From Gemmatimonadota bacterium (lineage in GTDB: Bacteria > Gemmatimonadota > Gemmatimonadetes > Gemmatimonadales > GWC2-71-9): a stretch of DNA of 39,833 nucleotides. Where the stretch lies: contig QHUC01000118.1 in assembly GCA_003221045.1 (NCBI GenBank), positions 1 through 39,833 of the forward strand. Reading direction: 5' to 3'. Position numbers and translations under genes: made by a program. Positions within the stretch are counted from its first letter, which is position 1; every line of letters starts with the position of its first letter. This document shows, one piece after another, positions 31,602 to 39,833 of the stretch. The notes beneath the pieces are model-generated. The model made no database searches. It was not told the origin of the DNA and was given only the letters and a program-made list of their open reading frames with translations.

Positions 31602-33312
31602 ATGGCCGACCACACCAGCGCGACCCGACCGCCCAAGAAGACCATCACCCCAGGCGCCTGGCAGGAAGCGCGCAGCCTGGTCTACGCCCACCGCCACCGG
31701 CTGGCCCTGGGCCTCGCGCTCCTGCTCCTCAACCGCATGGCGGGGCTCGTCCTCCCCTCGTCGTCCAAGTGGGTGATCGACCGCGTGATCAACCAGCACC
31801 ACCCCGAGCTCCTCCTGCCGCTGGCGATCTTGGTGGGCGGGGCCACACTGATTCAGGCGATCACCGGATTCGGTATCTCGCAGGTGCTCGGCGTCGCTGC
31901 CCAGCGGGCCATCACCGACATGCGCCGCACCGTGCAGGCGTATGTGTTGCGACTCCCGATCAGCTACTTCGATTCGACGAAGAGCGGAATCCTCATCTCC
32001 CGTATCATGACGGACGCCGAGGGCATCCGGAACCTCGTGGGCACGGGCTTGGTGCAGCTCGTGGGCGGGCTCGTGACGGGGGCGATCGCGCTCGGGGTGC
32101 TGTTTTATCTCAACTGGCGGCTCACGCTGACGCGCGGAGCGGAGCGAGCGGCTCGTGTTCACCCGTGGCGCGAACACCCTGTTCCGGAACATCGCCACGA
32201 CCATGACCGGCATTTCGGGAGTCGGGGCCTTCGCGACCATCATCATTGGCGCGATCGGCATCCTGATGATCCTCGAGGGCGGGCACGCGATCATCTCCGG
32301 TGCCATGACACTGGGGGACTTCGTCATGTACCTCATGTTCGTCGGCCTCGTCGCGCTGCCGTTGATCAACATCGCGTCGATCGGGACGCAGATCACCGAA
32401 GCCTTCGCGGGACTCGACCGCATCCGCGAGATCCGCCGGCTGGTGACCGAGGATGCGGACGACGGCGCGCGCGCCACGCTCGACGGCGTGCGGGGGGATA
32501 TCGCCTTCGAGAACGTCAGCTTCGAGTACACGACCGGACACGACGTGCTGAAGGGCGTCTCCTTCCGGGCCCCCGCCGGCTCGACCACCGCCCTGGTCGG
32601 CTCGTCGGGGGCGGGCAAGAGCACGCTGATCAGCCTCGTGCTGACGTTCAACCAGCCAAAGTCGGGCAGGATCCTCGTGGACGGCCGCGATCTCGCGTCG
32701 CTCCGGCTCGCCGACTACCGCCGCCAGCTCGGCGTCGTGCTCCAGGACAACTTTCTGTTCGACGGGACCGTGGCCGAGAACATCGCGTTCGCGCGGCCGC
32801 ACGCGACGCGCGAGGAGATCGAGGAAGCGGCCCGGATTGCCCATTGCGACGAGTTCGTGCGTCGCTTCGAGAACGGCTACGACACGGTGGTGGGGGAGCG
32901 AGGCGTGAAGCTGTCGGGCGGCGAACGCCAGCGGGTCTCGATCGCCCGGGCGATCCTGGCCGATCCGCGCATCCTCATCCTCGACGAGGCCACGTCCAGC
33001 CTCGACTCGGAGAGCGAAGCCGCGATCCAGGACGGGCTGCGCACGCTGCGGCACGGCCGCACGACTTTCGTGATCGCCCACCGCCTCTCGACGATCCGTA
33101 GCGCCGACCAGATCCTGGTGCTCGAGGGCGGCGAGATCGTCGAGCGCGGAACGCACGCGGAGCTCCTCGCCAGGCAGGGCCGCTACCGCCAGCTCTACGA
33201 CAAGCAGTACCACTTCGAGCAGGACCTCTTCGTGAACCCCGGCGAGGACTTCACGCCCGAGCCCGAAGCCATCGCGCCGCCCGCGCCGCTCACGCCACCG
33301 GGCCGGCTGTAG
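31602..33312 (+). pseudogene. ABC exporter half-transporter (TMD-NBD), broken by an out-of-frame deletion
   Basis: Two frames together make one ABC half-exporter. Frame 1 (31602 to about 32130) gives the first three membrane helices, ending LNWRLTLT. The second frame (readable from about 32131, after a TGA at 32128-32130) begins RAERSERLVFTRG and continues through the last helices and an intact nucleotide-binding domain: GSSGAGKST (Walker A), KLSGGERQRVS (signature), ILILDEATSSLD (Walker B), VIAHRLST (H loop). Compared with family members about 50 residues are missing between LTLT and the RAERSERL segment, and the frame changes there. Either a real deletion or an assembly error. Confidence 0.8.
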
Positions 33313-36959: not shown

Positions 36960-37036
36960 GGCAGGCTCCGGCCGGGATCCTACTAATTTGGGTCGCCGGG
37001 GTTTTCTTGCCCAGTGGGCGCGCTATCTTGCGTTTC

Positions 37037-39298
37037 ATGCGGCTGTCGCTGCGGTTCATCATCCCGCTATTTCTCGCGCTCGGTGCCATCGCGTACGCGG
37101 TGGTCCCGCTCGTCGACAAGCTGACCTTGCAATGGTTCGAGCGGGATCTGGACAGCCGCGCCAGCCTGATCGCCAACACCGTCCAGGAACCGTTGCGGGA
37201 CGCGATCCGCGCCGGGACCCGCTCCCGTCTCGAGGGGTTCTTCACGCGGCTCACGCAGGACGAGCGCCTGTTCGCGGTGGGGTTCTGCCCCACGGGCGGG
37301 GGCGAGGCGGTCGCGACCCCGACGCTCCCGACCGAAATCACCTGCGCCACGCTGGAGCAGTACTCGGGTGACGCGGGGCACGTCTTGAAGAGCGCCGACG
37401 GCCCGCTGCTGGTATCGGTCCGCCCGGTCGTGCTGGCGGGCGCGCCGGCCGGGACGCTGGTGCTGGTGCACGACCTGAGCTTCGTGGCGCGCCGCAGCGC
37501 GGAGACCCGAAAGTACCTCTTCTATTTCTTCGTCGGCCTCGGCGCCACGGTCGCGCTGATCACCGTCGTCATCGCGCAATTGAGCTGGCGCGGCTGGGTG
37601 CAGGGCCTCAGCGCGCTGCTGCGCGGCGAGGGGTTGGTACGCCCGGACAAGCCCGACGCACCCGAGCTGCGCCCCATCGCCCGCGACCTGCGCGCGCTGA
37701 TCAGCGACCTCCAGGCCGAGCACGGCTCGCGCGACGACGAACAGCTGGCGTGGACGCCAGACACGTTGCGCGCGATCCTGCACGGCGAGCTGCGCGGCCA
37801 GGAAGTCATCGTCGTTTCAAACCGGGAGCCGTACATCCACGTGCGCGAGGGCGAAAACATCGCCGTCTGGCGGCCCGCGAGCGGCTTGGTCACGGCGCTG
37901 GAGCCGATCATGCGCGCCTGCTCGGGCACGTGGATCGCTCACGGCGGCGGCTCCGCCGACCGTGAGGTCGTGGACCGCCACGACCGGGTCGGCGTGCCAC
38001 CGGAGCACCCGCTGTATCAACTGCGGCGGGTGTGGCTGACGCCCAAGGAGGAGGCCGGCTACTACTACGGATTCGCGAACGAGGGCCTGTGGCCGCTCTG
38101 CCACATCGCTCACGTCCGCCCCACGTTCCGCAGCGCCGACTGGGAGCAATATGTCGCGGTGAACCACGCGTTCGCCGGCGCCGTCGTGGACGAGGCGACA
38201 TCCCCCGACCCGATTGTGCTGGTACACGACTACCACTTCGCGCTGGTCCCCCGGATGATTCAAGAGGCGCTCCCCGCCGCGACGATCATCGCGTTCTGGC
38301 ACATCCCTTGGCCCAACCCGGAGGCGTTCGGCATCTGCCCATGGCGGGAGGAGCTGCTCGACGGCATGCTGGGGTCCACCATCCTCGGGTTTCACACCCA
38401 GTTCCATTGCAACAACTTCGTCGACACCGTCGACCGCCTGCTGGAGGCGCGGGTCGACCGGGAGATGTTCACCGTTTCGTATCGGGGGAAGCTCACGGCG
38501 GTGAAGCGCTACCCCATTTCGATCGAATGGCCGCCGTCAGCCGAGTTGGTGGGGAAGCCGGTGGAGCAGTGCCGCGAAGATGTGCGGCGGCGCCACGACC
38601 TGCCTCCGGATCAAGCGATCGGTGTCGGCGTCGATCGCCTCGACTATACGAAGGGGATCGAGGAACGATTGCGAGCGGTCGAGCGCCTGCTGGAGACGCA
38701 CCCGGAATGGGCTGGCCGGTTCACGTTCATCCAGATCGCGGCTCCCACGCGCTCGAAAATCGAGGAGTATCAGGCCTACGAGGGGCGCGTACGCGCGATG
38801 GTGGCCCGTATCAACGACCGGTTCGCGTCCGCCCGGCGCCCGCCCATCGAGCTCAAGATCGCGCACCATCAGCCCGACGAGGTCTACGAATACTATCGGG
38901 CGGCCGAGGTGTGCATGGTCACGAGCCTTCACGATGGCATGAACCTCGTGGCCAAGGAGTTCATCTCGTCGCGCACGGATGAGCGCGGTGTACTGATCCT
39001 CAGCCGGTTCACGGGCGCCGCGCGCGAGCTGCCCGAAGCCTTGATTGTGAACCCATACGATACGGATGAGTGCGCGGCCGCACTCCATCTGGCGTTGTCG
39101 ATGCCCGCCGGGGAGCAGCGCGCCCGCATCCGGCTGATGCGGGGCCTGATTCAGGACTTCAACGTGTACCGCTGGGCGGGGCGCATGTTGATCGATGCCG
39201 CCGCCATGCGCCGTCGCGGCCGCCTGCTGGAGCGGGCCACCGCGCCGGAGGCGCGGCGCCGCCCGGTCGTCCGAACGGGTGCAGGCCACCGCCGATGA
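37037..39298 (+). CDS. otsA: Trehalose-6-phosphate synthase (GT20) with N-terminal membrane sensor module
   Basis: 753 residues from ATG 37037, about 270 longer than standard OtsA. N-terminal module: TM1 about 7-25, extracytoplasmic region about 26-158, TM2 about 160-182, a HAMP-like helix region about 185-230. The GT20 domain starts near 255 (EVIVVSNREPY) and has WHIPWPNPEAFG, VDRLDYTKGIEERL, SLHDGMNLVAKEF and EALIVNPYD. It should make trehalose-6-phosphate from UDP-glucose (or another NDP-glucose) and glucose-6-phosphate, at the inner membrane. The architecture suggests synthesis controlled by an outside signal. Followed by the phosphatase gene with an ATGA overlap. Confidence 0.92.
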   Translation: MRLSLRFIIPLFLALGAIAYAVVPLVDKLTLQWFERDLDSRASLIANTVQEPLRDAIRAGTRSRLEGFFTRLTQDERLFAVGFCPTGGGEAVATPTLPTEITCATLEQYSGDAGHVLKSADGPLLVSVRPVVLAGAPAGTLVLVHDLSFVARRSAETRKYLFYFFVGLGATVALITVVIAQLSWRGWVQGLSALLRGEGLVRPDKPDAPELRPIARDLRALISDLQAEHGSRDDEQLAWTPDTLRAILHGELRGQEVIVVSNREPYIHVREGENIAVWRPASGLVTALEPIMRACSGTWIAHGGGSADREVVDRHDRVGVPPEHPLYQLRRVWLTPKEEAGYYYGFANEGLWPLCHIAHVRPTFRSADWEQYVAVNHAFAGAVVDEATSPDPIVLVHDYHFALVPRMIQEALPAATIIAFWHIPWPNPEAFGICPWREELLDGMLGSTILGFHTQFHCNNFVDTVDRLLEARVDREMFTVSYRGKLTAVKRYPISIEWPPSAELVGKPVEQCREDVRRRHDLPPDQAIGVGVDRLDYTKGIEERLRAVERLLETHPEWAGRFTFIQIAAPTRSKIEEYQAYEGRVRAMVARINDRFASARRPPIELKIAHHQPDEVYEYYRAAEVCMVTSLHDGMNLVAKEFISSRTDERGVLILSRFTGAARELPEALIVNPYDTDECAAALHLALSMPAGEQRARIRLMRGLIQDFNVYRWAGRMLIDAAAMRRRGRLLERATAPEARRRPVVRTGAGHRR

Positions 39299-39833
39299 CC
39301 CGCGCGGCCGGCCCACTGCCGGCGCCACGCCTGGACTGGGCGTATTTCTTCGACATCGACGGCACGCTCGTCGATTTCACGGACGCGCCCCGCGCCGCCC
39401 GCCTCGACGGCGATCTCCGCGGGATCATCGAGCGGCTCCATGGAGCGACCGGCGGCGCCGTGGCGTTGATCAGCGGTCGCGCCATCGCCGACATCGATGT
39501 CCTGCTTTCCGGGACGCGCTTTCCCGCCGCCGGCCAGCACGGTACCGAGCGTCGCGACGCCTCCGGTACGGTCACGCACCACGCGCGCCCGTCGCCCGAG
39601 CTCGACCGCGCGCGCCTGACGCTCTCCAGAGCCGCGGCGGCGCATCACGGGCTCCTGCTGGAGGACAAGGGCCTGTCCCTGGCGGTGCACTATCGCCGGG
39701 CGCCCCGGCTGGGGGGCTACGCGCACCGCCTGGTTCGCTCGCTGCTCGCCGGGACCGGGGGGACCGGGGGGGGGACTCGATATGCGGTGCAAACCGGAAA
39801 GCGGGTGGTCGAGCTGAAGCCGGCCGGCCGGGA
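39295..39833 (+). CDS. otsB: Trehalose-phosphatase, 5' part (cut by window end)
   Basis: About 179 codons visible, no stop before the window ends. ATG 39295 overlaps the otsA stop (ATGA), indicating translational coupling. HAD-superfamily motif I is FFDIDGTLVDF, with nucleophile Asp and general acid Asp; motif II-like LISGR follows about 40 residues later, and AAGQHGTERR and LSLAVHYRRAP are typical of OtsB. It dephosphorylates trehalose-6-phosphate to trehalose. A Gly stretch (GTGGTGGG) is encoded by a G-rich repeat at 39751-39774. The C-terminal third lies outside. Confidence 0.93.
   Translation, partial: MTRAAGPLPAPRLDWAYFFDIDGTLVDFTDAPRAARLDGDLRGIIERLHGATGGAVALISGRAIADIDVLLSGTRFPAAGQHGTERRDASGTVTHHARPSPELDRARLTLSRAAAAHHGLLLEDKGLSLAVHYRRAPRLGGYAHRLVRSLLAGTGGTGGGTRYAVQTGKRVVELKPAGR
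39751..39774 (+). repeat. G-tract repeat (GGACC with G6 to G9) in otsB
   Basis: GGGACC-G6-ACC-G9, in frame as GTGGTGGG within otsB. Similar in kind to the C/G tracts at 9341, 20148 and 29803; here the run lengths are not multiples of a fixed unit, so single-base slippage would shift the frame. Confidence 0.75.

Follow-up and report, generated by a model that had tools for sequence, protein, structure and literature searches.

Bacterial membrane receptors drive kinases, chemotaxis and second-messenger enzymes. Receptors of the Cache type such as WalK, CitA and Mlp24 share with the protein described here both the fold of the ectodomain and the layout of transmembrane segment (TM), Cache domain, TM and HAMP, whereas the output of our protein is a biosynthetic glycosyltransferase. 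A survey reports that Cache proteins have known signal-transduction outputs, in a set that was built from proteins with such outputs (PMC4822843), and a biosynthetic enzyme under receptor input would therefore extend the known receptors. On the enzyme side, the closest described systems are E. coli OtsA (1GZ5/1UQU), M. thermoresistibile OtsA (5JIJ) and CAZy family GT20, which have the same fold, active-site residues and otsB operon. The solved trehalose-6-phosphate (T6P) synthases of GT20 are mostly chains of about 455-535 residues, with one of 693, and E. coli OtsA has no front end comparable to the one described below. To our knowledge, no solved GT20 T6P synthase carries a two-TM sensor.

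A sensor role for the enzyme itself has been proposed in Arthrobacter A3, where OtsA would act as an osmotic stress sensor through self-assembly promoted by its product T6P, but the abstract of that study describes no membrane receptor (PMC5685639). In the Thermoproteus tenax TPSP operon, trehalose synthesis genes likewise stand with extra operon partners, but TPS is fused to TPP and not to a receptor, according to the abstract (PMC3634074). In the examined text of a review on the alpha-glucan enzymes of prokaryotes, OtsA is named 36 times and the word 'transmembrane' never appears (PMC11046441). Within the open-access literature, outside which most subscription journals fall, we found no description of OtsA as a membrane protein or as part of a receptor fusion.

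Here we describe such a fusion in a 39,833-base stretch of DNA from a soil bacterium of the Gemmatimonadota (hereafter, the window), which is one complete contig of a 2.8-Mb, 281-contig assembly with an estimated completeness of 85%. A stop-free frame at 37037-39298 of the forward strand forms a single ATG-started ORF of 753 aa, and the encoded chain begins with TM1, a predicted extracytoplasmic domain of ~130 aa and TM2, and continues through a HAMP-like linker into a full-length GT20 domain. A preliminary description of the locus had proposed that about 250 residues of two-TM extracytoplasmic front end precede OtsA; ORF analysis, hydropathy and Pfam bore out the fusion, its coordinates and its architecture, and we count ~255 residues N-terminal to GT20. 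The features, all on the forward strand, are as follows.

37037..39298 (+): receptor-OtsA fusion gene, ATG start, 753 aa; start and frame kept in the 73 full-length homologues among the best 80 of 131 loci
37058..37114 (+): TM1, residues about 8-26 (hydropathy; long helix 2-59 in the AlphaFold model)
37118..37510 (+): predicted Cache/PDC-type extracytoplasmic domain, residues about 28-158 (AlphaFold, Foldseek, conservation, dN/dS)
37286-37288 and 37343-37345 (+): invariant C84 and C103, within the Cache/PDC-type domain (conservation)
37514..37576 (+): TM2, residues about 160-180 (hydropathy; model helix 148-195)
37583..37726 (+): HAMP-like signal linker, residues about 183-230 (hhalign against PF00672-bearing histidine kinases; conservation)
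37727..37801 (+): connector, containing a short helix (241-250) immediately ahead of the GT20 domain's first strand (AlphaFold; conserved W239, L244, L248 and G254)
37802..39190 (+): GT20 trehalose-6-phosphate synthase domain, residues 256-718 (Pfam, PDB sequence matches, Foldseek, active-site columns)
39295..39833 (+): otsB, trehalose-6-phosphate phosphatase, 179 codons present (PF02358, E=3e-16; TIGR00685 above its cut-off)

We scanned named genomes with an alignment of the front end and obtained 131 confirmed loci, of which the best 80 were kept and 79 examined. Among these best 80 of 131, 73 are full-length fusions with the same TM placement, and an MRLSLRF-type start, both TM positions and the two extracytoplasmic cysteines are kept in the 79 loci examined. 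The MRLSLRF sequence that begins at 37037 is kept in about 80 homologues, confirming the start first assigned to the gene. No credible internal start precedes GT20 in the window, where the one candidate is a TTG that lacks a Shine-Dalgarno-like site, and no internal start codon position is conserved across all homologues. With the frame intact, the start conserved and no plausible internal start, the N-terminal part does not appear to be the separate gene product that the preliminary description had envisaged as grounds for rejection. That two genes were joined by an assembly error, or that a soluble OtsA is translated independently, is extremely improbable: the genome is fragmented and another gene on the contig looks frameshifted, but the fusion also occurs in isolates and on large or complete contigs (Geothrix fuzhouensis, Sulfurisoma sediminicola and Ca. 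Desulfobacillus denitrificans), and a free OtsA would have neither a common internal start nor a plausible one in the window. We therefore rejected an assembly fusion or split gene on the basis of conservation in isolates and long contigs.

Two further observations concern the contig itself. An ABC transporter (permease and ATPase) at 31602-33312 (+) is split into overlapping frames (31602-33101 and 32155-33312), and a near relative (L031) has an intact 620-aa ORF for the same transporter; the split is probably an indel in the assembly. Directly 5' of the fusion start codon lies a TATCTTGCG motif (37024-37036), which also occurs upstream of the fusion in four other loci (L031, L032, L035 and L037). 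Several species of the genus have this motif and mostly no clear Shine-Dalgarno site, and the motif is possibly the -10 box of a leaderless transcript.

The enzyme domain is full-length, matching PF00982 over residues 256-718 with E=1.8e-117 (393 bits against a cut-off of 32.5), and its model resembles known OtsA/Tps1 structures with a Foldseek TM of about 0.9 (target-normalised). When aligned with E. coli OtsA, all of the residues that we take to make up its active site (R9, G22, Y76, W85, D130, H154, R262, K267, R300, D361 and E369) sit in invariant columns. The domain did not reach the cut-off of the NCBIfam OtsA equivalog TIGR02400 (408 bits vs 565); it is therefore divergent, and the case for a T6P synthase is made by its active site and by otsB, not by this curated model. 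From the adjacent otsB, the fusion would be expected to make T6P with glucose-6-phosphate as acceptor. We found no further GT20 in the genome of the window (85% complete) or in five more fusion-bearing genomes, so in these six carriers the fusion could govern most OtsA-route trehalose synthesis.

The coupling to otsB proposed beforehand is present in the window as an ATGA overlap, with otsB starting at 39295, and otsB is directly downstream in 71 of the 73 full-length loci (best 80 of 131). Because the contig ends at 39833, the otsB of the window is incomplete. Further downstream, a same-strand GH15 gene is found in 54 of the 66 loci with enough sequence (best 80 of 131); one copy that we checked has matches to PF00723 and to PF19291, a trehalase-like N-terminal domain. 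These genes are the only recurrent neighbors, and no kinase, regulator or partner gene is common to most loci. The frequency of GH15 and the domains of this copy could suggest an internal signal, in which the key output is T6P or a cycle of trehalose turnover rather than osmoprotectant trehalose, with the GH15 of the operon removing trehalose. We consider this very unlikely, given that the GH15 substrate may be a different glucan and that we know of no T6P-binding regulator here, which counts against it.

At one locus (L144 2181-3113, G041:C33), a front end of ~212 residues continues in frame into an apparent GH15 C-terminal part, a pattern that would result from deletion of GT20, otsB and the beginning of GH15, or from a collapsed assembly. 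Upstream of an acidobacterial fusion (L095 895-4182) are a mechanosensitive-channel-type protein (PF05552) and an apparent glgC, an osmotic and sugar-storage context seen at this one locus only among those inspected.

Next, we examined the membrane front end. Hydropathy gave two clear TM segments, with peak windows beginning at residues 8 and 161. An AlphaFold model (built with 56 homologues; mean pLDDT 80.8) is confident over residues 1-190, which form a long TM1 helix extending out of the membrane, a mixed alpha/beta domain and the TM2 helix. AlphaFold, run for a monomer, gave low confidence to a large part of the proposed transmission segment (residues 190-236). Against the PDB, Foldseek matched the ectodomain to WalK-YycH, Mlp24, histidine-kinase ectodomains, CitA and WalK, all of Cache/PDC type (E 4e-7 to 9e-3), with a TM of 0.60-0.64 (target-normalised) for the CitA and WalK ectodomains. 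The two methods together place a Cache fold between the two TMs. No Pfam Cache model matched at E<=0.1 in 56 homologues, so we speak of a fold likeness to Cache and not of formal membership. A sequence search of the PDB with the front-end profile gave no match, and a Pfam match of the front end to Adeno_E3B was dismissed as a chance hit of hydrophobic sequence. TM2 has positive charges at either end, and the topology therefore rests mainly on the count of two TMs and on the cytoplasmic substrates of OtsA.

Pairwise BLAST between the front end of the window and a Gemmatimonadota histidine kinase (L140) gave no significant match, and we therefore turned to profile methods. A search with the front-end profile matched a histidine kinase of the same phylum (G256:C252) at 2.3e-8, whose layout is TM, ectodomain, TM, HAMP, HisKA and HATPase. 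When the fusion profile was aligned with such kinases by hhalign, the two were collinear over residues 1-231 (E=6e-11, score 78); by comparison, 60 draws in which the kinase columns were permuted with the TM columns kept in place gave a mean score of 28.8 and a maximum of 43.8. The parts scored modestly on their own (ectodomain against kinase ectodomain, E=0.003; linker against HAMP, E=6e-4), indicating that it is the collinear module as a whole that reaches significance. As the collinear alignment far exceeds the shuffles, the front end shares ancestry with kinase receptors, apparently with the HAMP position included. The kinases at L140 462-2480 and L036 798-2303 are like the fusion in that the whole front end is collinear (residues 1-230), but they carry HisKA/HATPase and a recognisable HAMP, whereas the fusion has no kinase part. 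The 'HAMP-like' label of the preliminary description calls for caution: the true HAMP of the kinases falls on residues ~183-228 of the fusion in the full profile alignment (a region of low model confidence), but PF00672 matched in 0 of 56 homologues. Judged by the structural model and these alignments, the front end is a genuine receptor module.

In one relative (L036 798-3690), the fusion is preceded by a histidine kinase and an NtrC-type response regulator, and otsB was not found at this locus. The kinase belongs to a family with a front end homologous to that of the fusion and is a possible donor lineage. This neighborhood, together with the WalK-YycH integrative model as top Foldseek match, speaks for sensing through a partner: in place of a free ligand, the ectodomain would read another protein of the envelope, as WalK is modelled with YycH, or would mix with histidine kinases related to it, with OtsA as output in either case. 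Such partner sensing seems quite unlikely, for no partner recurs widely among the neighbors, where only otsB and GH15 are common.

We then compared conservation along the chain. Mean majority identity is 0.88 in residues 183-200, just after TM2, 0.83 in GT20 and 0.66 in the ectodomain; the linker contains the near-invariant stretches S183-W-R-G-W and R196-G-E. In a comparison with the nearest homologue, dN is 0.130 and dS 0.553 for the ectodomain (dN/dS about 0.23, purifying selection), as against dN 0.051 and dS 0.696 for the GT20 domain. Of the 131 ectodomain positions, 14 are at least 98% conserved, including W33, D37, R41, C84, C103 and D146. A conserved transmission segment beneath a faster-evolving input domain would be the pattern expected of receptors. 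These data also bear on whether the front end merely tethers OtsA to the inner membrane, for localisation or channelling with OtsB, as a former receptor fallen silent. In favor of such an anchor, the front end has lost its match to the HAMP and Cache models of Pfam, and few folded parts are less conserved than the ectodomain; however, a bare anchor needs neither a 130-residue Cache fold under purifying selection with so many near-invariant positions nor a linker stretch conserved like the enzyme, and we regard anchoring alone as unlikely. The most divergent fusion (L143 943-3249, G072) has the same TM-sensor-TM-GT20 layout and otsB overlap and lacks the two conserved cysteines, which are thus inessential to the design.

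A taxonomic survey of the fusion, suggested at the outset, found carriers in Gemmatimonadota, Acidobacteriota and Betaproteobacteria. Among the best 80 of 131 loci these are Gemmatimonadetes, Acidobacteria (including Geothrix) and many Betaproteobacteria, such as Sulfuritalea, Sulfurisoma, Propionivibrio, Rhodoferax, Thiobacillus and others. Relatives of the window's bacterium at the level of genus, family and order carry the fusion at 49-88% identity. By our own count, the front end occurs in about 35 of the 395 genomes sampled from the phylum, where weaker matches cover no more than the opening residues of GT20. Of 250 genomes from the order to which a Sulfurisoma genome belongs, 17 carry the fusion, and in 17/17 the module sits within an open frame no shorter than 745 codons. 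All fused proteins (38/38) fell into one clade of a GT20 tree with a single change of state (SH-aLRT 99), in a quick tree made without bootstrap and with an unfused comparison set from Gemmatimonadota only. The Geothrix fusion and another acidobacterial one (L055, L086) nest in the betaproteobacterial clade; because acidobacterial Geothrix falls inside this group, the gene was likely transferred between phyla. We found no plasmid-borne copies of the fusion.

Taken together, we think it fairly likely that the fusion is a one-component transmembrane receptor-enzyme whose output is biosynthetic rather than a kinase or cyclase. This reading draws on the single chain, two TMs, receptor homology, catalytic residues, otsB operon and cross-phylum conservation. 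Input and output lie on one chain that, in a Pfam scan, has no phosphotransfer domains and GT20 as sole output; with no kinase or regulator domain on it, the kinase-free design suggested from the first reading stands. In the proposed mechanism, the Cache/PDC ectodomain, probably dimeric, would detect a small molecule or the state of the envelope, and the resulting change would pass through TM2 and the HAMP-like linker to the cytoplasmic GT20 domain, altering synthesis of T6P, which OtsB from the same operon would convert to trehalose. Topology, dimerisation, transmission, direction of the effect and ligand are all inferred. In the AlphaFold model, about six residues separate the end of the connector helix from the first GT20 strand. 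In E. coli OtsA, an N-terminal loop closes over the nucleotide sugar; the connector helix ends near that loop, and this closeness offers a plausible physical route from linker to enzyme. Osmolarity as the stimulus is only a guess. The conserved cysteine pair, missing in the L143 fusion, makes a redox-responsive or disulfide-stapled ectodomain another candidate.

Because the receptor-OtsA design recurs in three phyla, the making of a stress-protecting sugar may be under direct control of a signal from outside the cell. Chances seem evenly balanced that these proteins form a widespread and so far undescribed receptor class. In such a class the extracytoplasmic Cache domain would act as a direct gate on a primary biosynthetic glycosyltransferase, so that an outside signal would set trehalose synthesis post-translationally, with no kinase, second messenger or transcription. 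If so, wiring a receptor straight to a metabolic enzyme would shorten the path from the environment to the synthesis of osmolytes and stress sugars, and would offer a natural, transferable switch for trehalose production. It would also provide a simple one-protein system for studying how Cache and HAMP-like modules are coupled to new outputs, for which two assays would suffice.
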